Part shown: positions 5,040 through 34,129 of the stretch, piece by piece
How the letters are laid out: each line of letters opens with the position of its first letter
Position numbering within the stretch: position 1 is the first letter of the stretch
Source of the DNA: a virus
Direction: 5' to 3' (one strand)
DNA: 36,505 nt
IMG/VR virus record: IMGVR_UViG_3300033156_000786
Span: 1 to 36,505 of that record
Translations under genes and position numbers: made by a program
The notes under the pieces: model-generated
Database searches by the model: none
Seen by the model: only the letters and a program-made list of their open reading frames with translations
What the model was told of the DNA's origin: nothing

Positions 5040-5966
5040 ATGACCCTAACAAACACCTTTAGTGCTACTGACCTTCAGTATATCATTAACGAGATTTGGT
5101 CACCAAAGGTAGAGAGAGAATATCAGGCAAACCTGTTATTCGCCGACTTCGTGACTGATATGTCTGATATGTTTGCTGGCGGAGGTGATACTCTGAATAT
5201 AACCGAAATCTTTACTAATCAGTTCAGTGCAAATGACAAGAGCAACGCTACACAGGTTACCTTACAATCTCCAGCACAAGGGTCTCTTACCTTGGCTGTG
5301 AACACCTGGAAGGAAGTGAGTTGGTTGATTGAGGACAAAGAAATTCAATTAGCACTGCAATCCGCTGATTACTTGAGAGCTTATTCAGAGCAAGCAGAAT
5401 ACATCATTGCTAAAGCTCTGGATAGTTCTCTTGCTGGTTTATATTCAGGGTTATCTCAAAGTGTAAACGATACCGCCAGTGATGTATCAGACGCAGACAT
5501 TAGAAGTGCGATAGAGACAATTCTTGACGGTGATGCTCCTTTTGAGGGCTTGGCTTTCTTCTTTCACCCAACCGTTATCTGGCACGATTTGATGGGTATC
5601 AGCAAATACACTAATGTGTATCAAGCTGGTCCTACAAATCAAGCTGGTCCAGTAATTACTGGAGCTTTCGGTGGTGGAAGGGCAGGAAAGGCTTTGAGGG
5701 GTTACCTTTACGGAATTCCTGTATATGAAACCACTCAAGTGCAGGAAGATGGAGCAAGCTCTGCTTACTTCAACTTGCTCATTACTCCTCGAACCTTCTG
5801 CTACGCCGTCAGAACTCCTGGTGGCAAGAGAGTAAGAAGCCAAGCTCACTATTGGCCTGAATCCCTTGGAACTCTTTGGACTACTGACATCATTTACGGT
5901 GTCGCAGAATTGAGAGACGCTGAAGGTGTAGTGATTAAGAGCCGACAAACTGGAATTGTTAGCTAA
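5040..5966 (+). CDS. Major capsid protein (HK97-fold type)
   Basis: A 308-residue protein in the coat-protein position after portal and scaffold. The N-terminus FSATDLQYIINEIWSPKVER, the central helix with LRAYSEQAEYIIAKALDSSL, the AFFFHPTVIWHDL strand and the GYLYGIPVYETTQV region match the general pattern of HK97-fold coat proteins. Codon use differs from neighbours: more C-ending codons (GAC, AAC, TTC, TAC), as expected for the most highly expressed gene. No Shine-Dalgarno precedes the start. It is followed by strong RNA hairpins. Confidence 0.85.
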   Translation: MTLTNTFSATDLQYIINEIWSPKVEREYQANLLFADFVTDMSDMFAGGGDTLNITEIFTNQFSANDKSNATQVTLQSPAQGSLTLAVNTWKEVSWLIEDKEIQLALQSADYLRAYSEQAEYIIAKALDSSLAGLYSGLSQSVNDTASDVSDADIRSAIETILDGDAPFEGLAFFFHPTVIWHDLMGISKYTNVYQAGPTNQAGPVITGAFGGGRAGKALRGYLYGIPVYETTQVQEDGASSAYFNLLITPRTFCYAVRTPGGKRVRSQAHYWPESLGTLWTTDIIYGVAELRDAEGVVIKSRQTGIVS

Positions 5967-6490: not shown

Positions 6491-6677
6491 AAGTTATTAT
6501 TCACCAAAGGGGCATTTATACCCAAAGGCAGTAATTTGGGGCGAATCAAAAATTGCTTGTGAGAGAAAGGACGAAAAAAATATGAAAGAAGCAAAAGAGA
6601 GGGCAATGGAAAAAATTAAAAACGCCCCAATTAAAAAAGAAACAGTTAAATTAAAAACTGAGGATTTGAAAAAATGA
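6459..6677 (+). CDS. Small basic hypothetical protein
   Basis: A 72-residue protein if started at ATG 6459 (MTKHHLGKLPKSYY), preceded by GAGGTG; in-frame upstream starts at 6438 and 6405 are possible. It overlaps the end of the previous gene in another frame and overlaps the next start by four bases (ATGA), as coupled genes do. Contains KSYYSPKGHLYPKAVIWG and then a lysine-rich helix. Unknown function. Confidence 0.5.
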   Translation: MTKHHLGKLPKSYYSPKGHLYPKAVIWGESKIACERKDEKNMKEAKERAMEKIKNAPIKKETVKLKTEDLKK

Positions 6678-7663
6678 AAATAGTCGGATACTGTATAGTT
6701 GGTTCAAATGAAGCAGATAGATATTTAGACAAAACATTGAGCCAATTATCTGAGTTATGCGACGAAGTAATTATTGCTTTAAATGCGAAAGATGAGAAAA
6801 CAAGATTGGCTGTATTGAAATATCCAAAAGTAAAAGCATACGACCTTTCAGAATACGAATGGGGCAAAGAGCAATGGAAAATTAAAGAATTGTTCTTTAA
6901 AAAATGTGTAATTCCTACTAAACCAGATTGGGTTGTTTGTTTAGACGCTGATGAGGTTTTTGAGAAAAGAGTAAACAGAGAAGTATTAGAGGAATTAGCA
7001 AAAAGAGGAGAAATAGCATTTACATTTTACTGCGTTCAATTATGGGATAGAGAAGACCAAATGAGAGTAGATGGTGGCTGGGGAAATTTTAGAAATGTCA
7101 GATACTTCAAATATATTCCAGAAGCCCAAATAATGTGGCAGAGAACACCGCTTCACTGTGGATTAGCCCCAATTTACGCTTATAGGTGGGCATCAGATTC
7201 AGAATATCTTTTCAAACATTACGGCTATTTGAAAAAAGAGGATAGATTACAAAAGGTCGAAAGATATAAGAAATATGACCCAGAAGGGCGTTATAGAACA
7301 AAGCAATGGTATGATAGTATTTTAGGAGAGCCAGAATTGAGAAAATTTGATGAAGACGAATTTGGAAAAAAATTAAGATATAAACCAAAACGCCCCTTAA
7401 TGAGTAAGGTTGTTAAGAAAAAAATTATGGCAAAAACATATTATGTAAAAAATAAATACGGAAAAGTATATCCTGTTTCTGAAGGTTTGCTTGAAGAGAC
7501 CCTAAGAAGACCAGGTATGGAATTGGTTGAAGAGAAAGATTATCTGAAACAAGAAAAAAGAATACCATTGGTAGAACCAAATCCATTACAATGTCCAATT
7601 TGTGGATTTGTGGCAAAGACAAAATCAGGATTAAACCTTCATAAGAAAAAGCACAAAAAATGA
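6674..7663 (+). CDS. GT-A glycosyltransferase fused to a YYVKN module and C2H2 zinc finger
   Basis: A 329-residue protein in three parts. Residues 1-240 look like a family-2-type GT-A sugar transferase: a beta strand and nucleotide-binding start (MKIVGYCIVGSNEADRYL) and a metal-binding DxD (D91-A-D93). Residues 252-290 repeat the YYVKN-GKV module seen at 6083. Residues 307-327 form a canonical C2H2 finger, C-x2-C-x12-H-x3-H. A second ATG at 7427, in the same AAAATTATGGC context used by true starts, could release the last 78 residues separately. The sugar and acceptor are unknown. Confidence 0.75.
   Translation: MKIVGYCIVGSNEADRYLDKTLSQLSELCDEVIIALNAKDEKTRLAVLKYPKVKAYDLSEYEWGKEQWKIKELFFKKCVIPTKPDWVVCLDADEVFEKRVNREVLEELAKRGEIAFTFYCVQLWDREDQMRVDGGWGNFRNVRYFKYIPEAQIMWQRTPLHCGLAPIYAYRWASDSEYLFKHYGYLKKEDRLQKVERYKKYDPEGRYRTKQWYDSILGEPELRKFDEDEFGKKLRYKPKRPLMSKVVKKKIMAKTYYVKNKYGKVYPVSEGLLEETLRRPGMELVEEKDYLKQEKRIPLVEPNPLQCPICGFVAKTKSGLNLHKKKHKK
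7427..7663 (+). CDS. Possible internally started YYVKN/zinc-finger protein
   Basis: In-frame internal start of the glycosyltransferase gene. The preceding AAAAAAATT and following GGCAA match the starts at 1887 and 28638. The product would be 78 residues: the YYVKN-GKV module plus the C2H2 finger (C56, C59, H72, H76 in this numbering). Without protein data it is equally possible that only the fusion is made. Confidence 0.35.
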   Translation: MAKTYYVKNKYGKVYPVSEGLLEETLRRPGMELVEEKDYLKQEKRIPLVEPNPLQCPICGFVAKTKSGLNLHKKKHKK

Positions 7664-9279
7664 AAATACTATTAATTGGAGATTTCAGTAAGCCATACGC
7701 TACCTTTAATTGGGTTGCCAAGAGTTTGAAACAATTAGGACAGCAAATAAGGTGTGTTTCAGAAAATAAAAGAGATTTCAAGATTATAGAGAAAATAAGA
7801 CAATTTAAGCCAGATGTTTTGCTCTTTTCAAAGGGAAATATTGGAGGAAGGTTAGAAGCAGTATTGAATTGTGCCAAAAATGAAGGAGTTTTAACTGTTT
7901 GCTGGTTATTTGACCTTTATTTTAAGACACCAAGAGAACCGCAGGTTTATTCTCACCCAAGATTTAAAGCAGATATTGTTTTAACTACTGATGGGGGGCA
8001 TCAGGAGAAATTTGAGGAGTTAGGAATAAATCATATCTGTTTGAGGCAAGGAATTTTTCAAGATGAAGCATATATTTCAAAAGAGAAAATAAAAGCCCCA
8101 GAGATAGTATTTATTGGTTCAGATATTCCCTGGTATCCTAATCGGGAGAGATTAGTAAATTTTTTAGAGAGAACCTATAAAGATAAATTTGGCAGATATG
8201 GAACAAAAGACAAGATTATAAGAGGAAAAAATCTGAATAGATTACTTGCCTCAACCAAGATAGTTGTGGGAGATACAGTTCCTTCACCAAATTATTGGTC
8301 TAATAGAATTTATGAGGTTTTGGGTAGAGGAGGATTTCTAATTCACCCGAAAATTCCAGGGCTTGAAAAAGAATTTGAATACTGGAAACATTTTGTGCCA
8401 TACGACCAATTTAATTTCAACCAGTTAAAAGAAATAATTGACTTCTATCTAACCCACGATGAGGAAAGAGAAAAAATAAGATTAGCAGGGCATAAATTCT
8501 GTAAAGAAAATTACACCTATCTTAAAAGATGTGAAAATTTTTTAGAAATTGTGAGAGAGTATTTAAATAAAAAAGAGATTAATATCCAAGAAAAGAGTAA
8601 TTTACCAGAAGTTACAGCAATTCTGCTTCCTTACACGAGAGCAGAGCAATATGATAATTGGTTAGAGAACATTAAAAGCCAAGAAGGGGTATCTTTAACA
8701 ATTTGGACTTGGGATAGTTTAGGAACATTACCAGAGAAAGATGGGGTATTAACATTTAGAGACCCATACAATTTTGGAGTATATTGGAGATGGGAATTAG
8801 CAAAATATGTGCCAACAAAATATGTGCTTTTAATAGATGATGATGTATTTTTCAAGGATAAATATGTTTTAAGAGATACAATTGAGGCAAAAAAGAAATA
8901 TCCAGAAGATAGCGTGGTTGGTTGGAAGGGAGTAATTTTAAAAGGAAAATATAGCGAGAGCATACATATCCGTTCTGAAAGAGTAAAAAAGGATACCAAA
9001 GTGGACTTTGTTAAGGTTAATTATCTGCTTTTTGAAAGAGATGGGTTAAGAAAAACAAAAATCTTACCCTTTGAAATTTTAGAGATAGACAGAAAAGCAG
9101 ATGGAGAATTCTGGTATATGCCTCAAATGGGAGACCATTATGTGATTAGATGTTTAGCAAATAGATTAGATAATTCAAGGACGCTTGGAAAAGGAAAAGA
9201 AACAAGAAAAGACCATTTTGAAAAACAAGACGCCCTTGTAGAATATTCATTAAAATGCCACAAACATCAGAAGACATAA
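7660..9279 (+). CDS. Double glycosyltransferase (GT-B followed by GT-A)
   Basis: A 539-residue protein. Residues 1-305 resemble GT-B transferases with a glycosyl-transferases-group-1 C-terminal half: an MKILLIGDFSKPYATFNWVA start, FKPDVLLFSKG, and SNRIYEVLGRGGFLIHPKIPGL, followed by a helical end with HDEEREKIRLAGH. Residues 313-539 start a second, GT-A-like unit (LPEVTAILLPYTRA) with an acidic metal-binding cluster in YVLLIDDDVFF near 392. One protein could therefore add two successive sugars. It overlaps the preceding gene by four bases and the next by 25. The acceptor is unknown. Confidence 0.75.
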   Translation: MKILLIGDFSKPYATFNWVAKSLKQLGQQIRCVSENKRDFKIIEKIRQFKPDVLLFSKGNIGGRLEAVLNCAKNEGVLTVCWLFDLYFKTPREPQVYSHPRFKADIVLTTDGGHQEKFEELGINHICLRQGIFQDEAYISKEKIKAPEIVFIGSDIPWYPNRERLVNFLERTYKDKFGRYGTKDKIIRGKNLNRLLASTKIVVGDTVPSPNYWSNRIYEVLGRGGFLIHPKIPGLEKEFEYWKHFVPYDQFNFNQLKEIIDFYLTHDEEREKIRLAGHKFCKENYTYLKRCENFLEIVREYLNKKEINIQEKSNLPEVTAILLPYTRAEQYDNWLENIKSQEGVSLTIWTWDSLGTLPEKDGVLTFRDPYNFGVYWRWELAKYVPTKYVLLIDDDVFFKDKYVLRDTIEAKKKYPEDSVVGWKGVILKGKYSESIHIRSERVKKDTKVDFVKVNYLLFERDGLRKTKILPFEILEIDRKADGEFWYMPQMGDHYVIRCLANRLDNSRTLGKGKETRKDHFEKQDALVEYSLKCHKHQKT

Positions 9280-10223
9280 AAAATGTTTATTCAGAAGAGT
9301 ATTGGAAAGCGAAAAAGGTTGATTATGAGAACCTTATTGATAGATTAAAATTGCCCTTTGAAATGGCAGATATAAAGAAAGGAGAGTTAATTCTGGATTT
9401 AGGTGGCGGGTTAGGAGAAATATCATATCAGTGCCTTAAAAAAGGAGCAAGGGTTGTATATGTTGATTATTCAGATTATGCCATAGAACAAGCAAAAAAG
9501 ATAAAAGGATTAGAAGTTCACGGTTGCTCTATTCTGGATTTCATTAAGAAAGAAAAAAGAGTTTTTGATAAGACATTTTTGGTAGATGTTTTTGAGCATT
9601 TATCAAGAGAAGAAAACGAAAAATTGTTTAGATGGTTAGCAGACCATACCAAGAGAGTGATAATCCAGACACCGATTTATAAAAGTTACCTTAAAGAGAC
9701 GGGACATATTTTTGTCTTACCGCTGGAAGAATTAAAAGAATTTTTAAATAAACACGGCTTTATTATAGAAAAAGAGGTTGTAAAAGAAAAACTAACAGCG
9801 ATTTGTAAGAGAAAAAAGAAGGTTGTGGCTGTTTCTGGATACTTTATTTGGCTTCACGCTGGACATTGTGAGTATTTTGAGAAAGCAAAACAATTAGGAG
9901 ATGAATTGGTTGTAATTTTAAATAATGATATTCAGCAAAAAATAAAATACGGAAAAGTTATAGTTCCTTATAAAGAGCGAGAAAAAATAATAGAAAGCAT
10001 CAGGTATGTGGATAGAGTAATGGAGAGTATAGATAAAGATGAAAGTGTTTGTGCCTCATTAGAAGCATTAAAACCAGATATTTTTGCTAAAGGGGGAGAT
10101 AGAACAATTTATAATATCCCAGAGAAAAAGGTCTGTGAAGAAAATAAAATTAAAATAGTTTGGGGCTTGGGTAAAAAAATCCAAAGTTCCTCTTGGCTAA
10201 TGAATAAAACAAAAAATTTATGA
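9255..10223 (+). CDS. Bifunctional SAM methyltransferase / nucleotidylyltransferase
   Basis: A 322-residue fusion. The N-terminal half is a class I methyltransferase with motif I DLGGGLGE (48-55), an acidic residue after strand 2 (D71) and FLVDVFEHL (108-116). The C-terminal half from about 188 is a cytidylyltransferase-like adenylyl/cytidylyl transferase: VSGYFIWLHAGH carries the HxGH site (201-204), KGGDR is at 279-283 and a SSSW motif near 311 replaces the usual ISSS/TSS motif. This domain resembles RfaE-C/TagD enzymes that make ADP-heptose or CDP-glycerol-type donors. It would supply an activated sugar to the neighbouring transferases. Confidence 0.75.
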   Translation: MPQTSEDIKNVYSEEYWKAKKVDYENLIDRLKLPFEMADIKKGELILDLGGGLGEISYQCLKKGARVVYVDYSDYAIEQAKKIKGLEVHGCSILDFIKKEKRVFDKTFLVDVFEHLSREENEKLFRWLADHTKRVIIQTPIYKSYLKETGHIFVLPLEELKEFLNKHGFIIEKEVVKEKLTAICKRKKKVVAVSGYFIWLHAGHCEYFEKAKQLGDELVVILNNDIQQKIKYGKVIVPYKEREKIIESIRYVDRVMESIDKDESVCASLEALKPDIFAKGGDRTIYNIPEKKVCEENKIKIVWGLGKKIQSSSWLMNKTKNL

Positions 10224-18291: not shown

Positions 18292-21200
18292 ATGGCATTA
18301 CCCTTTAATTGGAAAACAACTTCAGATGATGAGGTTGGTAAGAAAAAACTTTTACCTTTTAACTGGAAAGAACCTCTTGAAGAAAAAACTGGTAGAAAGA
18401 GGAAAATTTTACCATTAACAGAAGAAACCATTAAACCATTAAGCACCGTTGAAGTTGCTGAAATGATTGGTTATCCTGTTTTAAGAGCCGCTCCACCAGA
18501 AAAAGAAAAAAAAGATACTTGGCTTAAAAGAGTAGCGAGATTTATCTTGCCAAGAAGTTTAGAAATAAAATTAGGTATTACAGAACCAACCGAATGGGAG
18601 TTAATGATGCAACACGAAGATGATAGATTGAATTATTTACGAAGGCAGCACTTTAAAGAGTTATATCGGAAAGAAATTATTAAAAACCCAAAAGTTCCAA
18701 AAGAGTATAAAGAACCTACCACCTTTATTGGACAATTTTTAGAAGGGATAAAAGAAGGATACATTTCTATGAAAAGTAGTTTTGGTTATTTTGTGGAAAG
18801 CTTGGGTAGACAAATTGGTAGTCCAAAATTATTACAATGGGGAGCCAATTTAGGAGATAAAGCAACAATAGAACTAATAAAAAAACCAGAGTTATTAGAA
18901 CCAGAAGATTTAAAACCCTTTTTTAAGGGTGGTTGGGTAGATAGAAGGTGGTGGGGTAGAAGAATAGGGCAAACCCTTCCCACTATAGGAACAATGCTTG
19001 GGCTGGCTACTTTTGGTGGATTTACAGGAGGAATACCTGGTGCTCTTACTGGTGGTTTTGTATCGGCAGCAGCATTAGAAAAAGGTGCTGCTTATAAAAG
19101 ATATATTAACGAAGGGGTGCCACCAGATAAAGCAGATATTTATTCAAATGTTTATGGGACAATAGCAGGGTTAATTGAAAATGCGTTTGGTATATCTCCT
19201 GCCAAAATTGGAACCCAAATCGCAATACGAGGAATAGAAAGAGTGGTTTATAACAGTTATAAACAATTTTTATTAAGAGAAGTTCCCAAAATAGGATTTA
19301 AAACATTAAAACAAGCAATAGCAGAAGGAGGAGAAGAGGTTGCTCAAAGTATTGCCGAAAATCTTGTTTTAAAATTTTACAAAAAAGAAACCCCTGTTTT
19401 TAGCAAAGGTTTAGCAGAAGAATTTGCTGGTGGGTTTGCGGCTGCTATTCCTTTTGGAGCAATTAACATTAGAATACCAGAAATCAAAAAAATAACACCA
19501 AAAGAGGTAAAAGCAATAGAACAAACCATTAAAGAGGCAGACGAGGTTTTAAAGAGGGAAATTAAGAAAAAGCCAACAGAAATCAAAATAGAGGGAATTC
19601 CAGAAGACCTGAAAAGGGATTTAAATAAAGCATTAGAGAGAGCAAAGCGCCTTAATTATTCCTTTGATGAATTTCGTTCATTTGTTAGAGGGGGAGCTAC
19701 ACAAGGAAAAGAATATTTGGTCGGTTTACGAAAATATGGATTATCGCCATATTCTGAAAGAATAAGTAAATTAGGGGTAAATCCAGAGAGAGAGGTCATT
19801 GTTTATAGAGGAATTGACTTTCTCACTGAAAAACCAGTTAAAAAAATAAGAGACGGAGATTTTGTTACAACTGATTATGAACACGCACTTGAATTCGCAG
19901 GAATGGAATCAAAATGGGTAGTTAAAAAGAAGGTTAAAGCAAAAGATTTGATTGTTAAAGATAAAAGAGATTTTAATCCAAAAGAACCTTTTTATAAATA
20001 TGATGAATTTATTTATTCTCATCATCGTAATCCTCTTATAAGATTAACGGACGAACAACTCAAATATTTCTACAACCAAGCAGTCAAAGGAGTAAAAGAA
20101 GCCAAACTCCCAAAATTCCCAGAAAATAAATATAAACTTGAACTTTTAGAAGAAATAAGAAAATTGGAAGAATTACCTAAAATTGACCCAGAGGCTTTTG
20201 AATTTACCCCTAAAACTGTTAGTTATAATAACCCTTATACAAGGGTAATGACAAAAGTTTGGAATAGAATTTTAAAAATTTGGGATTCTAAAGCCCCTCG
20301 TGTTGTAAAAGAAGCTCAAACCCAAGAAATAGCCCGTCTTTTAAGAGAAAGACAAAGAGTTTATGATGGTTTGGTCAAAAAATATTACGAAGAAATTATT
20401 AGACCTTTAACAAAACTCACCACAGCAGAAAAACAAAAAATTGGTAATATGATTTTTAAGAGGATAGATGTTCCAGAAGAGTATAAATCAGTTATTAAAG
20501 ACATTGATGTAAAGATAGGACAATTAGGAGAAGCAATAGTTAATTTAGACAAAGAAATGATTAAGAAGGGATTGCTTCCCAAAGAAATGACATTATTAAC
20601 CGAAGAAACTTGGTTGTCTCATTTAGGAGAATATGCCAGAACTCTATATGTTAGAGTTGACCCTAAAACTGGTAAACCAGTTATAGTTCCTCGTTCTGTT
20701 TTGACAAAAGAAGGGGTAATAGATAGGTCGGCTTTTAAGAGGAAACTAACAGACGAAGAATGGGGAGCGAACGCTTTACAATTTGAGGGTAAAACATTAG
20801 ATGAAATTAAACAATACACAATAGAGGAACTGCGAGCAATTGGGCAAGAAGCAAAAGAAAAATATGGTTGGGTTTTTCAAGCAGATTATATTTTAGCCAG
20901 AACATTTAAAGATTTATCAAAAGCATACGCTACGAGATTATTTCAAAAAGCCATTGTAGAAAACCCAAGATTATTTACGAAAGATGTTAAGTTAGCAGAA
21001 GAGTTAGGATTTGTTTCAGTAAGAAATATTTTACCGAAAGGAGTTGAAAAAGATGTAAGGTTGGGACCACTAAATTATGGTTATATTCACCCAGGGCTTC
21101 AAGAAGAATTAAGAACCTTTGTTTTGGAAAGTGGACGAGATACTGTAATGTCCATTTTTCAAGAACCTCTTTCTTGGTGGAAAGCATTTAAGGTTGCTGG

Positions 21201-24236: not shown

Positions 24237-24400
24237 GAAAAAAAGAGATGATTCTTAAAACGCTGAGGCTGAGAGAGTTAAAGAAAAGAATTGAGGAACT
24301 AAAGAAAAGTGGAAAACCAAGCGATATGGCAGAGGTTAGCAGACTAAGAAAGAGAGTGATAATGCTTTTAAAAGATATTCTTGAGGAGGTGGAAGAATGA
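24233..24400 (+). CDS. 55-residue helical protein
   Basis: Begins MRKKEMILKTLRLRELKKRI, a basic helical hairpin or coiled coil. Its ribosome site GAAAGGAGGTGATGAA lies inside the preceding gene, and its own last codons (GAGGAGGTGGAAGAA) form the ribosome site of the protease, so the three genes are tightly coupled. Unknown function. Confidence 0.7.
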   Translation: MRKKEMILKTLRLRELKKRIEELKKSGKPSDMAEVSRLRKRVIMLLKDILEEVEE

Positions 24401-24951
24401 GGGATATCTTGGTCGCAATGGGGATAGGGCTTCTCCTTTTTTCCTCTGTTAGTGTTAATCCCCGTGCGAATCTTATCCGCAAGATTACAAGCCAGGTTGT
24501 AAGAGTTAACACCTATAAGAGTTTTGGCGGTGGCGTAATAATTGATTACTGCTATGTTCTTTCTGTTGCTCATTTAATAGATGGAGAAATTTTTGTGAGC
24601 GGCTTGGCAAGCAGAGCAATAAGAATGACTGATGACTTGGTATATATTCGTGTTCCTCATAGTTTTGAAAGAAAGGTTAAGTTTGCTAAAAAAGCCGACC
24701 TGTTAGAAAAGGTTTATATTGTTGGTTATCCGCTGGGCAAGAAAATGATAATTCCTGCTACTATTTGTGGAATTCACGGCTATACTATTTTTCTTAATGC
24801 GAAGGTGGTTGCTGGTATGTCTGGTGGCGGTGTATTTAATGAGAAAGGCGAATTGGTTGGAATAGTACACGGAGGTAGTGGCACCCCTGAAAAACTTTTG
24901 GTTGCTACCTCATTCGTGGCTATTAAGAGATTCCTCAATACTGAGGAATAA
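24397..24951 (+). CDS. Secreted trypsin-like serine protease
   Basis: A 184-residue protein. Residues 4-20 are hydrophobic (ILVAMGIGLLLFSSVSV), a signal peptide or membrane anchor. The chymotrypsin/HtrA-type triad is complete: H59 in SVAHLID, D80 (or D79) in MTDDLVYI and S142 in GMSGGGVFN. No PDZ domain follows, so it is shorter than DegP/HtrA. A phage-encoded exported protease may process surface or virion proteins, or attack the host envelope. It starts four bases inside the preceding gene and ends at a terminator. Confidence 0.85.
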   Translation: MRDILVAMGIGLLLFSSVSVNPRANLIRKITSQVVRVNTYKSFGGGVIIDYCYVLSVAHLIDGEIFVSGLASRAIRMTDDLVYIRVPHSFERKVKFAKKADLLEKVYIVGYPLGKKMIIPATICGIHGYTIFLNAKVVAGMSGGGVFNEKGELVGIVHGGSGTPEKLLVATSFVAIKRFLNTEE

Positions 24952-29928: not shown

Positions 29929-30077
29929 GCCAAAAAACAAAAACAAAAGTCGTGTGTGTATTGTGCGGAAAAGAACTAAAAGAGGAGGAGATATACGATG
30001 AAAAAATTGAAAGAATTTGGCAACCTTGCTGTAAAGAGTGTTGGGAAAAATTAAAAACAAATGAGGAAAAAGAATAA
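29925..30077 (+). CDS. 50-residue zinc-ribbon protein
   Basis: Begins MSQKTKTKVVCVLCGKELK and has two C-x2-C pairs (CVLC, and CKEC preceded by a further C), the ligands of a small zinc ribbon. It shares ATGA with the previous stop and overlaps the HNH gene by 17 bases. Likely a nucleic-acid or protein adaptor. Confidence 0.65.
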   Translation: MSQKTKTKVVCVLCGKELKEEEIYDEKIERIWQPCCKECWEKLKTNEEKE

Positions 30078-30447
30078 AAAAAGAGAACTTAAAAAAGAAG
30101 CAGAGCGGTTAATGTATCAATTAGCGTTTAAGTTATACGGCGATAGGTGTGAAATATGTGGGAGCAAAAAAGGAGTAGTAGTTCACCATTTCATTTTTAG
30201 AAGCAAGTGTAAAGCCCTTTCGTATTGTAAAGATAACCTAATCGTCCTTTGCCGAGATTGTCATTTCAAATTACATCATACAAAATCATCAAGTATAATT
30301 GAACTGAAAATAATTCAAAAAAGAGGAGAAAAGTGGCTTAAAAGATTATTAAAAAAATACGAGAAGGCAAAGAAACTAACAAGTTATTATGGTGTGCGAT
30401 GGTTAGAGGAGCAGATTAAAAAATTAAAAAGAGAAATTAAAAAATGA
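30061..30447 (+). CDS. HNH endonuclease
   Basis: A 128-residue protein. Zinc ligands C30-x2-C33 and C64-x2-C67 flank the HNH site: VVHHFI (H42/H43), N59 in KDNLIVLC and H68/H72 in CHFKLHH. The C-terminal third is basic and helical. In phages, HNH proteins act in packaging, as homing nucleases or in recombination. Here it sits with early DNA-metabolism genes far from terL, so a recombination or homing role is more likely. Confidence 0.85.
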   Translation: MRKKNKKRELKKEAERLMYQLAFKLYGDRCEICGSKKGVVVHHFIFRSKCKALSYCKDNLIVLCRDCHFKLHHTKSSSIIELKIIQKRGEKWLKRLLKKYEKAKKLTSYYGVRWLEEQIKKLKREIKK

Positions 30448-30822: not shown

Positions 30823-30966
30823 ATGGCTAAAAAGCAAATAGAAAACCCAAAAGAAGGACACGGAGAGAAACTGGACAAAATTATACAGATGCTGGAAATG
30901 GTTTTAGAGGAACTTGATAGTATTCGGTATTATGCGGAGGAGGTATATAATAATCAAAAAAAATAA
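30823..30966 (+). CDS. 47-residue helical protein
   Basis: MAKKQIENPKEGHGEKLDKI followed by a helix with LEMVLEELDSIRYY. The MAKKQ start resembles the later cassette proteins. Unknown function. Confidence 0.6.
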   Translation: MAKKQIENPKEGHGEKLDKIIQMLEMVLEELDSIRYYAEEVYNNQKK

Positions 30967-30972
30967 AAAACT

Positions 30973-31062
30973 ATGCCACGAGGTCGTAGAAGAAAAATTT
31001 GTAAAAAAACTGGCAAAAAGCCAACTTGGGCAAGAAAAAGAAGGCACTGGAGAGAGGATTAA
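30973..31062 (+). CDS. 29-residue arginine/lysine-rich peptide
   Basis: Begins MPRGRRRKICKKTGKKPTWA and continues RKRRHWRED. A small, strongly basic peptide six bases after the preceding stop, with ACTATG start context like its neighbours. Probably nucleic-acid binding if made. Confidence 0.45.
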   Translation: MPRGRRRKICKKTGKKPTWARKRRHWRED

Positions 31063-31086
31063 TTAAATAAAAAACCAAACAAACCT

Positions 31087-31281
31087 ATGAAGAACTATCT
31101 TAATCCTTACAAAATTGTTGCGATTTTCTTATGGGTGTTTGCTCTTATACTTTTTATTGCGGGCTTATACGGAATACTAACCCCTGATTATCCCTACCGT
31201 GATGGAGCAATAAGAAATTTTGTCATAAATGCTCCCTTGTTTGTTTTAAGTGGTTTTCTTTTTTGGTCTTTATCCAGATAG
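31087..31281 (+). CDS. Two-segment membrane protein
   Basis: A 64-residue protein with hydrophobic segments at about 9-30 (VAIFLWVFALILFIAGLYGI) and 44-62 (FVINAPLFVLSGFLFWSL). A small inner-membrane protein of the early region; superinfection exclusion or membrane takeover is possible but not shown. Confidence 0.65.
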   Translation: MKNYLNPYKIVAIFLWVFALILFIAGLYGILTPDYPYRDGAIRNFVINAPLFVLSGFLFWSLSR

Positions 31282-31310
31282 GCTGACAAATAAAATCCAT
31301 TATTAAAACT

Positions 31311-31550
31311 ATGACCAAAAAGCAAAACAAAACAATTAAAGAGGAGATATGTTTACACGAAAAATATCTAACACCTAAATATATGGTGATAGCCTTTGGA
31401 AGCTTTAAATATTCACGTCCAAGATATTTTATTCACAGAAAAAGTTTGTTTAAATATCTTGATGTTCTTTGTAAAAAGAAAATAAATCACGAAATAAAAG
31501 AATTACCCCCTCTTGTTAATTTAAATAATTATGACCAAAAAACTAAATAA
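31311..31550 (+). CDS. Cassette small protein 1
   Basis: 79 residues. After the shared MTKKQNKTIKEE the body is basic and aromatic (KYMVIAFGSFKYSRPRYFIH). Its tail NYDQKTK is the next gene's start element read in another frame; overlap is 20 bases. No domain recognised. Confidence 0.65.
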   Translation: MTKKQNKTIKEEICLHEKYLTPKYMVIAFGSFKYSRPRYFIHRKSLFKYLDVLCKKKINHEIKELPPLVNLNNYDQKTK

Positions 31551-31731
31551 ACCCACGAAGAAAGAAAAGAAAATTAAATATTTTACTAAAAAGTTTAAAA
31601 CCGCCTATAGGGAAATAGAAAAAATGCCTCGATTGTCTTGGTTTCAAAAAAAGGCTCTTCAGCATCGGTTAGTTTACGATTGCAAATTTAGATATGATTT
31701 TTATAAAACCTTAAAAGATAAACAACAATAA
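31531..31731 (+). CDS. Cassette small protein 2
   Basis: 66 residues starting MTKKLNKPTKKEKKI, then a basic helical body with PRLSWFQKKALQHRLVYD. Very high positive charge suggests nucleic-acid or membrane-surface contact. Unknown function. Confidence 0.65.
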   Translation: MTKKLNKPTKKEKKIKYFTKKFKTAYREIEKMPRLSWFQKKALQHRLVYDCKFRYDFYKTLKDKQQ

Positions 31732-31744
31732 CCAAAGATAACCT

Positions 31745-31987
31745 ATGACCAAAGACCAAAAGAAAATCATAGAAGAGATTTTAAACTTAATAGAGGCAGA
31801 CGCCTTAGAGGAAGCGGTAGAAATTATTAGAAAAAAAGCAGAGAGAGCCTTTCATAAGTATTTTAAGGCTCGCCAAAAGAGAAAAATAATGGAGGCTGTA
31901 AGATATATGGAGGAATACGAGATGTTGTCTAAAAAAGAATATGAATTACTTAAAAAAATAAATAAATTGCGTGGATATAGCACCTAA
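31745..31987 (+). CDS. Cassette small protein 3
   Basis: 80 residues starting MTKDQKKIIEEILNLIEADA. Entirely helical and probably a helical bundle or coiled coil. Starts 13 bases after protein 2. Unknown function. Confidence 0.65.
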   Translation: MTKDQKKIIEEILNLIEADALEEAVEIIRKKAERAFHKYFKARQKRKIMEAVRYMEEYEMLSKKEYELLKKINKLRGYST

Positions 31988-31995
31988 TTACACTT

Positions 31996-32196
31996 ATGAA
32001 AAAACAAAACAAAACAATTGAAGAATTAACCCTTTATGATTTTCTGACAAATTATGATTTATATGGTGAGCCCGTAGAAATAAAACTTGATGCTACTAAT
32101 TTTGAAGTTTTGATGAATAAATTAAATGAGGTTATAAGGAAAATCAATGAGTTTTATGACCAAAAACCAAAAGAAACCAACCAAAAAAACCTATAA
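31996..32196 (+). CDS. Cassette small protein 4
   Basis: 66 residues starting MKKQNKTIEELTLYDFLTNY, with a short beta segment (EPVEIKLDATNFEVL) and a helix. Its tail, FYDQKPKETNQKNL, is the next start element read out of frame over a 41-base overlap. Confidence 0.65.
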   Translation: MKKQNKTIEELTLYDFLTNYDLYGEPVEIKLDATNFEVLMNKLNEVIRKINEFYDQKPKETNQKNL

Positions 32197-32362
32197 CTGC
32201 GAAGATTTAAACAGAATTAAGGTTTTATACAACATAATGACAGCCAGAATGAATGCCTTAATTGATGAAGTAGAGGAGTTAAATTCTTATTTGCGATATT
32301 TAAAACCCATTTTACCTGATGATAATCGGACAAAAAATGAAAAAGCAAAACAAAACAATTAA
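32156..32362 (+). CDS. Cassette small protein 5
   Basis: 68 residues from ATG 32156 (MTKNQKKPTKKTYNCEDLN); the in-frame ATG nine bases earlier is less likely because the shared element starts at 32156. Helical coiled-coil body (MNALIDEVEELNSYLRYL). Tail NEKAKQNN comes from the next start element. Confidence 0.65.
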   Translation: MTKNQKKPTKKTYNCEDLNRIKVLYNIMTARMNALIDEVEELNSYLRYLKPILPDDNRTKNEKAKQNN

Positions 32363-32579
32363 AGAATTCTCCGAGTGGCTCAATGAAGAAGACCGCCAAA
32401 ATTGGGAAATTGAAAGATATGTTGAGGAGTTAATTGCCCAAACTAAGAGAGAAACCCTAAAAGAAATTTTAAAAAAATTAAAACAAATACAGGTTCTTGC
32501 CGATAAAGAGCAAGCACTTGAAACAGATTTGGCTATACAAGAGTTATTGGCGTTGGTAAACAACAAAAAAGATTATTAG
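32337..32579 (+). CDS. Cassette small protein 6
   Basis: 80 residues from ATG 32337 (MKKQNKTIKEFSEWLNEEDR). A long helix with leucine-rich heptads (TLKEILKKLKQIQVLADKEQ) suggests dimerisation. First ten residues nearly identical to those of protein 4. Confidence 0.65.
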   Translation: MKKQNKTIKEFSEWLNEEDRQNWEIERYVEELIAQTKRETLKEILKKLKQIQVLADKEQALETDLAIQELLALVNNKKDY

Positions 32580-32583
32580 ACCT

Positions 32584-32949
32584 ATGCCAAACCAAAAGAA
32601 AATAATTAAAGAGGAGATAATAGAGATTTTAGAGGATTTTTACTCGGGTTATACACCAAACTCTGGAAGAAGGGGAATGTATAACTGGAGAGACAAAATA
32701 TTAGATGTTTTCCGCCAAACCCTCCAACGCTTTATAGAGGAGACAAGAATACCAGAAATAAGGTTAAGAATGGATGAAAATTGTCCTTTTTGTGGAAAGA
32801 AAAAATGGGAATGTGAAGCAGAATTAGCAATAGATAAAGAAATTGGGTTTGAAAAATTAAATGAGTTTGATTGTCATCGTATTACCTATAATCAGGTTGT
32901 AAGAAAACTTAACCAAAAACAACAACAATGGCTCAAAGAAAATCTATGA
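32584..32949 (+). CDS. Cassette small protein 7, cysteine-containing
   Basis: 121 residues, the longest of the cassette, starting MPNQKKIIKEEIIEILEDFY. CPFCGKKKWECE with a later C and H (FDCHRI) may bind one zinc. The end has KLNQKQQQWLKENL. Overlaps the next gene by four bases. Confidence 0.7.
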   Translation: MPNQKKIIKEEIIEILEDFYSGYTPNSGRRGMYNWRDKILDVFRQTLQRFIEETRIPEIRLRMDENCPFCGKKKWECEAELAIDKEIGFEKLNEFDCHRITYNQVVRKLNQKQQQWLKENL

Positions 32950-33134
32950 GTAAAAAAGAATTACAAAAATTAAAATATAGAATTTTGGCACACTTAGACG
33001 AGCTTGAAGACTTAGAAGACGATGAAAAAAGAAGCAATAAAGTAATAGAGCTTTTTGAGGCGGTAATATCAGAACAACAATGGCTAAAAGAAACTCATGA
33101 AAAAACAAAAGAAAAGGATTCTTGGTATTATTGA
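32946..33134 (+). CDS. Cassette small protein 8
   Basis: 62 residues from ATG 32946 (MSKKELQKLKYRILAHLDEL), with a weaker version of the shared start. Acidic helical body (LEDLEDDEKRSNKVIELFEA). Tail THEKTKEKDSWYY is partly the next start element read in another frame. An upstream in-frame ATG at 32928 is possible. Confidence 0.6.
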   Translation: MSKKELQKLKYRILAHLDELEDLEDDEKRSNKVIELFEAVISEQQWLKETHEKTKEKDSWYY

Positions 33135-33288
33135 TAGCTTTAATGATGCGTATTGGGAGTTAGGAGGAGATAGTTTTTTGTTTCACTTAGTCTGTTTCCC
33201 CATTTTTCTTATTAGTTTTTTCTTTCTACACATAATTTTGATGCCATTGATGATTATAGAAGTAATAACCGACCTGTTTGGAAACTAA
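33097..33288 (+). CDS. Cassette small protein 9, membrane
   Basis: 63 residues starting MKKQKKRILGIIDSFNDAYW, then a long hydrophobic region (FLFHLVCFPIFLISFFFLHI and LMPLMIIEVI), one or two membrane passes. Overlaps protein 8 by 38 bases. The shared start thus precedes both soluble and membrane bodies. Confidence 0.65.
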   Translation: MKKQKKRILGIIDSFNDAYWELGGDSFLFHLVCFPIFLISFFFLHIILMPLMIIEVITDLFGN

Positions 33289-33293
33289 AACCT

Positions 33294-33500
33294 ATGAAGA
33301 AACAAAAGAAAATTGAAGGGATTACTTATGGAAAACTAACAAAATTTTATCTTTGGCTTAGAAGAATTTTAAAGAAAGATAATTATATTATTGGTATTGA
33401 TTATACCAATAATAGAGATTATACTTGTATTTTTCAAAAAGTTGGAGATAAATACTATCTCATTAAAACCTATGACCAAAAAACAAAAGAAAATTTTTGA
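33294..33500 (+). CDS. Cassette small protein 10
   Basis: 68 residues starting MKKQKKIEGITYGKLTKFYL, with a small beta end (NYIIGIDYTNNRDYTCIFQK). Tail TYDQKTKENF is the following start element read in another frame (29-base overlap). Confidence 0.65.
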   Translation: MKKQKKIEGITYGKLTKFYLWLRRILKKDNYIIGIDYTNNRDYTCIFQKVGDKYYLIKTYDQKTKENF

Positions 33501-33780
33501 TGACGAAAGTATGGAAGGACAAATATCAAATCTTTTGTCCGAATATATGAAAGATATTTTTGCCTACATTAATGGAGAAAAGAAAATAACCCCTCTTGAC
33601 TTTCCCGTTTTCGATTGCTTTGCTGTGACCGAGAAAATAATGGCTATAGTAAGAAGAAATGAACAAAAGAAAATGGAAAATAAAATAGATTATTTTTCTC
33701 CCTACCAGCAATGGACGAGATGGGAACAACAACTTAAGGGGATTGATAATTATGGAGAAACTTCTTATAGCAATGGCTAA
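33472..33780 (+). CDS. Cassette small protein 11
   Basis: 102 residues from ATG 33472 (MTKKQKKIFDDESMEGQISN); the same frame is open upstream, but the shared element marks this start. Helical body (NLLSEYMKDIFAYINGEKKI). Ends with YGETSYSNG. Unknown function. Confidence 0.65.
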   Translation: MTKKQKKIFDDESMEGQISNLLSEYMKDIFAYINGEKKITPLDFPVFDCFAVTEKIMAIVRRNEQKKMENKIDYFSPYQQWTRWEQQLKGIDNYGETSYSNG

Positions 33781-33790
33781 AACAAAACCT

Positions 33791-34108
33791 ATGACTAAAA
33801 AACAATTCCTAAAAAACAAAATCAATGAACTCCAAAAACTTATCTGGGAAACAGAATTAGAAATAAAAAGAGGAGAACTTTTAATAGACGACCTAAAAGA
33901 AAAACTAAAAGAGTTTGATAAAACTCCTATAATTACTAAACCAAACGAAAACCCATTAAGTGCCGTTGATGAGAAAAAGAAAACCATTGAAAAAACAAAC
34001 AAAGAACTATCAGAAATGGAAATAATGGTAGAGTTATTAAGACACAGATTAAAAGTTGATGAGGAGTTTTTATCGGTTCTAAAAAAAGAATTAAAGAGGG
34101 AGAGATAA
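33791..34108 (+). CDS. Cassette small protein 12, coiled coil
   Basis: 105 residues from ATG 33791 (MTKKQFLKNKINELQKLIWE), preceded by AAAACCT. Two coiled-coil helices separated by a proline/asparagine link (TPIITKPNENPLS). Last gene of the rightward early transcript; it converges on the leftward genes. Confidence 0.65.
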   Translation: MTKKQFLKNKINELQKLIWETELEIKRGELLIDDLKEKLKEFDKTPIITKPNENPLSAVDEKKKTIEKTNKELSEMEIMVELLRHRLKVDEEFLSVLKKELKRER

Positions 34109-34129
34109 ATAATTTACCCCTCCCCCTTT
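34109..34129. other. Convergent gene junction
   Basis: 21 bases between the ends of opposite-strand genes: C-rich then T-rich (CCCCTCCCCCTTTTT). The 3' end of the + gene (GGGAG) can pair with the CTCCC block ahead of the T-run, giving a short possible terminator for the rightward transcript. Confidence 0.35.

Follow-up and report, generated by a model that had tools for sequence, protein, structure and literature searches.

The window analysed here is the entire IMG/VR record IMGVR_UViG_3300033156_000786 (36,505 bases, 34% GC; G000 in the contig set), a viral contig with genes for a terminase large subunit, a portal-type protein, a major head protein, a DnaD-like replication protein, an exonuclease and an HNH endonuclease. 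Between positions 31311 and 33791, the starts of twelve consecutive small genes form an array in which eleven starts carry copies of one DNA element, AAAACCTATGACCAAAAAACAAAAGAAAACAATTAAAGAGGAG, and the start at 32946 is marginal. A first-pass annotation had reported this run of nearly identical starts and had counted ten clear and two weak copies; the run is borne out and the count is fair, the copy at 33791 being a partial one that keeps only the first part of the element. The consensus is AAAACCT-ATG-ACC-AAA-AAA-CAA-AAG-AAA-ACA-ATT-AAA-GAG-GAG, and the element extends from about -10 to about +35 relative to the ATG (approximately 45 bases), with the copies at 32923, 33075 and 33768 reaching about 25 nt further on the upstream side. 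The earlier description of a block across the start codon and first codons is therefore correct for that part of the element, but its upstream reach has to be added, as does the overlap, in another frame, between several copies and the 3' end of the gene before them.

The similarity of the starts is not a product of base composition. The mean pairwise identity of the twelve starts over the region -7 to +26 is 0.617, compared with 0.447 (standard deviation 0.020, maximum 0.515) for twelve other starts of the same phage, and by a like measure the real starts reach 0.611 when base-shuffled copies reach 0.493 (standard deviation 0.007, maximum 0.519). Composition alone is ruled out by both controls, and the suggestion that shuffled A-rich starts might be equally similar fails. 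A hidden Markov model (HMM) of the element, run on 14 contigs plus the window with a threshold of 8 bits, gave 64 matches of at least 8 bits, and reversed sequence gave none (control maximum 5.8). Almost all of the matches lie on a single strand and across the ATG of small genes, the exceptions being a minus-strand match in G009 and, in G005, two starts that lie outside the array. Exact shared runs of at least 16 nt occur in 405 of 1633 pairs of element starts with unrelated bodies and in 0 of 1653 pairs of other starts.

Read in the frame of the new gene, the element encodes its start, MTKKQKKTIKEEI. The second frame reads YDQKTKENN* and the third ...KENL*, with a TGA that overlaps the ATG (ATGA), so that upstream genes often end inside the element: the upstream stop lies within it in 16 of 58 copies, at ATGA in 5 and within a dozen bases before the ATG in 8, and the endings read YDQ(K/N/E)xKENN*, or KENL* at ATGA. 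The longer copies extend upstream as CAACAACAATGGCTAAAAGAAAACCTATGA, which corresponds to the tail QQQWLKENL* of one protein family together with an earlier start, MAKRKPM. The lysine codon after the glutamine is AAG in all 28 copies that were not selected by the search pattern, whereas AAG makes up 20% of the lysine codons in the bodies, and the next lysine codon is AAA in 30 of 31.

Behind their shared heads the proteins diverge fully, as had been claimed, and they include a membrane protein. From residue 14 on, no paralogy is found between the bodies inside the window, where blastp yields a single match, of 17 residues with E=0.04, and searches of the bodies with Pfam, PHROG and PADLOC gave no convincing match. 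Across contigs, 45 body families are represented among the 56 genes that begin with the element.

Pattern scans of viral contigs yielded a dozen contigs with the element, mainly from metagenomes 3300033145-33156, 3300014886 and 3300033388, and further ones were added by family search. Several of them have almost no other DNA in common, and the head protein of the window has a recognisable relative in only 3 of 14 contigs, which indicates that the element crosses phage lineages. Neither close isolate phages of the window nor matches to the array gene family were found. The only array contig from a genome collection, L063, has a length of 3 kb and belongs to an archaeal metagenome-assembled genome in which archaeal small-subunit rRNA was looked for and not found, and it is possibly misbinned. 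Other core-pattern matches in genome-collection contigs and in L060 look like chance, and the matches in G012-G014 are isolated and probably chance as well.

Probable cassette exchange at the element

Comparison of the array between contigs reveals where shared DNA begins and ends. Window positions 33287-33493 and G003 5151-5358 are 92.3% identical over exactly one cassette, which is the only DNA common to the two contigs, and the neighbouring genes differ. In the close relative G006 (IMGVR_UViG_3300014886_000001), both flanks of the array are 93-94% identical to those of the window, while within the array only islands match. Two islands that lie two genes apart in the window are joined in G006 inside a single element, and this element is chimeric, its left part matching window 32156 and its right part window 32584. 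Such an element is what a crossover within the common core would be expected to yield, by deletion or by insertion.

Among the ends of blocks that the window array has in common with other contigs, 13 of 16 fall in element zones, which make up 25% of the region (P=3.7e-6); five of the right-hand ends are found at +20 to +24, within the next, unrelated coding sequence. Furthermore, one and the same body can stand behind different heads, which is the case for LTLYDFLT (found with several heads), the membrane protein at 33097, WKVELRCRGC, ITLWD and KKIGYTLPDG; the head of the membrane protein is MKKQKKRILG in the window and MAKRKPMKKAID in L065. In addition, gene 25920 lies outside the array in the window, and its homologue lies inside the L065 array, joined in the element tail.

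On these comparisons, the repeated start is probably a homology joint at gene boundaries that serves cassette exchange within a hypervariable array of small genes. The first-pass annotation had left open whether the element is a translation-initiation module, a shared protein tag or a recombination site that adds new gene bodies, and the last option is the best supported, by the ends of shared blocks, the chimeric element and the bodies swapped behind heads. A cassette would begin in one element, take in its own gene body and stop codon and reach into the next element, and homologous recombination between element copies, within one genome or between co-infecting phages, would delete, insert or replace whole cassettes. 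As the joint spans the start codon and the first codons, an incoming body would gain a working, unstructured start, and the stops in the other two frames would close the upstream gene wherever the joint enters. The repeat, its conservation as DNA, the unrelated bodies, the block ends in the element, the chimeric element and the head swaps are observed, whereas crossovers in the element as the cause of the exchanges, an acting enzyme, a direction for each event and a benefit from expression are inferred. The element itself probably originated where tandem copies of the IKEEI family met head to tail, in a putative ancestral arrangement of IKEEI...RFIEET...QQQWLKENL* followed by M(AKRKP)MTKKQKKTIKEEI, other bodies being exchanged in.

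Several points weigh against exchange at the element as the source of these patterns. Block ends near gene starts are mildly enriched outside arrays too (37 of 173, with about 15% expected), and part of the endpoint enrichment is therefore ordinary gene-boundary mosaicism. A both-sided endpoint test gave P=2e-4 but cannot separate the causes and is not relied on, because its control outside arrays is also enriched (10% vs 1%). The element copies are related by descent, which makes the binomial P values optimistic, that is, too small. RecT and ERF recombinases were sought in 12 records and not found, other families not having been searched as such. Element pairs inside the window mostly share fewer than 20 identical nt, so recent exchange would need inter-phage or fresher copies; the minimal pairing segment of Red-beta is quoted as 23-27 bp (PMC3945230), and 75 between-copy element pairs across contigs share at least 23 identical nt. 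Finally, selection on translation could also conserve the element sequence.

Competing readings of the repeated start

Such selection is central to an alternative that appears unlikely, in which an unstructured, A-rich region from -10 to +30 is selected as a module that gives strong translation initiation in a host without Shine-Dalgarno (SD) initiation, and cassettes move by illegitimate recombination at gene borders. The SD signal of the element phages is indeed not above shuffles, element starts are less folded than other starts (mean -1.86 vs -4.54 kcal/mol, P=3e-11) and they are enriched for A at -6 to -4 and T at -1. Initiation in SD-less Flavobacterium is favoured by A-rich, unstructured starts, and a preference for A at -3 and -6 has been described there (PMC6847099). 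Other genes of the element phages prefer A at the same two positions, but A at -3 is present in only 14 of 57 element starts, compared with 190 of 283 other genes (P=4.5e-9), and CCT, which is the end of the KENL* reading, precedes the ATG in 37.5% of element starts and in 1.5% elsewhere. Moreover, genes outside arrays hardly use the element, and selection for A-richness alone leaves both the invariant AAG and the chimeric element unexplained. Thus, the unstructured starts without SD sequences agree with an initiation module and the missing A at -3 does not, and start function is plausibly a needed second role of the element rather than the reason for its repetition.

Plain gene-family duplication, by which the array genes would be paralogues with bodies diverged beyond recognition, is very unlikely, although one true paralogue family is headed by the element. 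This is the IKEEI...LQRFIEET...QQQWLKENL family, to which gene 32584 belongs, and non-coding remnants of its tail precede unrelated genes (window 33768; G011 6142). Alignment of bodies over their full length, named earlier as the mark of simple duplication, is found only for the 32584 family across phages and for no genes inside the window. The other bodies include a membrane protein, Cys-motif proteins and further proteins without detectable similarity; the head that is similar at the nucleotide level stops abruptly, and the same body is found with other heads or with none. A structure model of the IKEEI family has three helices at moderate confidence, and a fold search with it gave no significant match. 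The paralogue family also contains a second DNA-level repeat, CAACGCTTTATAGAGGAGACA (RFIEET), at window 32723-32745 and in homologues; it is a possible second exchange point, as the similarity between the window and G006 breaks off there. In L032 (G007; 1738 and 2841), a gene combines an internal element-like stretch with the body of another element gene behind it, which is apparently an in-frame cassette fusion.

A shared N-terminal tag, serving for example localisation or binding on varied effectors, is still harder to credit. All the proteins open with a short basic M(T/K)KKQKK stretch, but the five core codons show about 26 amino-acid-changing and 10 synonymous differences when counted from the codon table, while synonymous sites such as the AAG are fixed, and the other frames of the element are used to encode C-terminal tails. 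With AAG fixed and changes of amino acid outnumbering silent ones, the element is conserved as DNA and not as a protein tag.

Least probable of all is a dedicated system of mobile cassettes whose capture would be driven by an endonuclease cutting in or close to the elements, for example the nearby HNH protein (30061-30447). HNH homologues lie within a few kb of an array in G000, G006, L063, L064 and G008, and tandem amplification of phage loci can be driven by a homing endonuclease, SegB (PMC13096335), but most of the other array contigs have the gene far away or not at all, and phages commonly carry HNH genes. An HNH endonuclease near the arrays could promote exchange.

Array layout and neighbouring features

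Table 1. Elements, small genes and shared blocks of the array in window coordinates.
Feature	Position	Strand	Remarks
Preceding small membrane gene		+	ATG 31087; reduced head; 31078..31332 shares a block with G004 9118-9372 (77%) that ends at +21 of element 1
Element copy 1	31301..31345	+	ATG 31311; MTKKQNKTIKEE
Small gene 1	31311..31550	+	Tail YDQKTK* encoded by next element
Element copy 2	31521..31565	+	ATG 31531; diverged
Small gene 2	31531..31731	+	
Element copy 3	31735..31779	+	ATG 31745
Small gene 3	31745..31987	+	
Element copy 4	31986..32030	+	ATG 31996; MKKQNKTIEE
Small gene 4	31996..32196	+	Body LTLYDFLT, also in G006, G011 and L065 with other heads and neighbours
Element copy 5	32146..32190	+	ATG 32156; left part matches that of the chimeric element at G006 32584
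Small gene 5	32156..32362	+	Absent from G006
Element copy 6	32327..32371	+	ATG 32337
Small gene 6	32337..32579	+	Body FSEWLN, also in G009; absent from G006
Element copy 7	32574..32618	+	ATG 32584; right part matches that of the chimeric element at G006 32584
Small gene 7	32584..32949	+	IKEEI...LQRFIEET...QQQWLKENL paralogue family member; CxxC motif in window copy
Extended upstream junction part and marginal element	32917..32960	+	ATG 32946; QQQWLKENL* / MAQRKSM
Small gene 8	32928..33134	+	Start 32928 or 32946; tail ETHEKTKEK read from next element
Extended junction and element copy 8	33073..33131	+	ATG 33097
Small gene 9	33097..33288	+	Membrane protein; same body with different head in L065
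Element copy 9	33284..33328	+	ATG 33294
Cassette common to window and G003	33287..33493	+	G003 5151-5358 (92.3%); extends from position -7 of one element to position +21 of the following one
Small gene 10	33294..33500	+	Tail YDQKTKENF* encoded by next element
Element copy 10	33462..33506	+	ATG 33472; nearest to consensus
Small gene 11	33472..33780	+	
Remnant extended junction and truncated element	33766..33812	+	ATG 33791; right array border, where G006 collinearity resumes
Small gene 12	33791..34108	+	Ortholog at G006 33930

Further features were observed around the arrays and elsewhere in the window. Left of its array, at about 30900-31680, G006 has an inserted gene relative to the window, with a highly repetitive body (VGGFIKVDGYIKV repeats), and repeats are also held by G008 19521-20001. 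At about 33630-33720 of G006, a GC-rich non-coding insert (CGCGCTCGGCAAGTCCTCGAGG...) stands directly before an element in an otherwise AT-rich array. A terminator-like hairpin at window 34093-34129 separates the array from convergent leftward genes. A protease gene (phrog_9683) at 24397-24951 has a strong SD sequence, GAGGAGGTGGAAG, whereas other window genes are mostly without one, and it is perhaps a recent acquisition from another host group. Within the structural region, a run of genes at 6674-10223 resembles glycosyltransferases by eye, and 9255-10223 likewise looks like a methyltransferase/nucleotidyltransferase fusion.

Known parallels and significance

Integron gene cassettes are exchangeable, promoterless small genes with a common joint, the attC site, which is used by an IntI-type tyrosine integrase. 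The array resembles them as a row of exchangeable small genes that share a joint, but no consistent inverted repeat of the kind expected for an attC-like structured site was found at the element joints, and no integrase was seen, none having been sought. In T4-type phages, mobile regulatory cassettes, reportedly described by Arbiol and colleagues in 2010, are said to carry an early promoter together with a stem-loop in the intergenic space. Both systems have short elements repeated between small genes that would favour the shuffling of modules in hypervariable regions; unlike the T4-type cassettes, however, the element has no promoter or stem-loop signal and its starts are nearly unfolded. Promoter-like sites number 11, compared with 14.0 in shuffles, a count that promoters of an unknown type could escape.

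The parallel drawn by the first-pass annotation was with the start-associated sequence (SAS) and ESAS of cluster K mycobacteriophages, the SAS being a 13-bp sequence, GGGATAGGAGCCC, upstream of the start (PMC3203893). Both are repeated, strand-specific sequences that accompany the starts of small genes from various families and in some cases overlap the upstream stop, but the element continues into the coding sequence and marks the borders of cassettes. Directly upstream of the starts, GGGATAGGAGCCC has 0 matches with up to 2 mismatches allowed, and a search for ESAS-type 17-bp imperfect inverted repeats revealed no recurrent inverted repeat at the element starts. The likeness thus holds for position only. 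An element of the SD, SAS, promoter or stem-loop type was rejected, as SD and SAS sequences are absent, promoter-like sites are at shuffle level and the starts are unfolded.

A closer counterpart is offered by lambdoid phages, where conserved boundary sequences have been described as short conserved sequences between modules at which homologous recombination takes place (PMC3029335). As in those phages, a short sequence lies at gene borders, mosaic joints fall there and unrelated genes stand between; similar short sequences do border unrelated genes in the array, and exchanged blocks do end in them, the latter partly overlapping the general gene-boundary effect. In contrast to the lambdoid sequences, the window element is present in about ten copies within a single array and includes the first codons; it also puts stops in the other two frames and is found again in phages that have hardly any other DNA in common. 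From the sequence comparison, the element would be a variant of the conserved boundary sequences of mosaic phages that differs in its repeated array and its position in the coding sequence. A more tentative and rather doubtful extension is that it forms an evolved gene-capture platform, a frame-independent joint that ends genes upstream and starts them downstream, kept for trading single small genes (possibly for anti-defence) between unrelated phages, perhaps with a dedicated nuclease or annealing protein.

It has long been asked how mosaic phages acquire single genes with clean borders, and boundary homology has been set against random recombination followed by selection; at most mosaic joints, boundary sequences are not findable (PMC3029335). 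In the present case, a joint that is repeated and recognisable lies within coding sequence, a chimeric product is at hand and otherwise unrelated phages have a single cassette in common, which makes the boundary-homology model directly testable. In addition, the element can be used to locate accessory genes in metagenomic data, and it illustrates how the start region of a gene can also work as a site of recombination.

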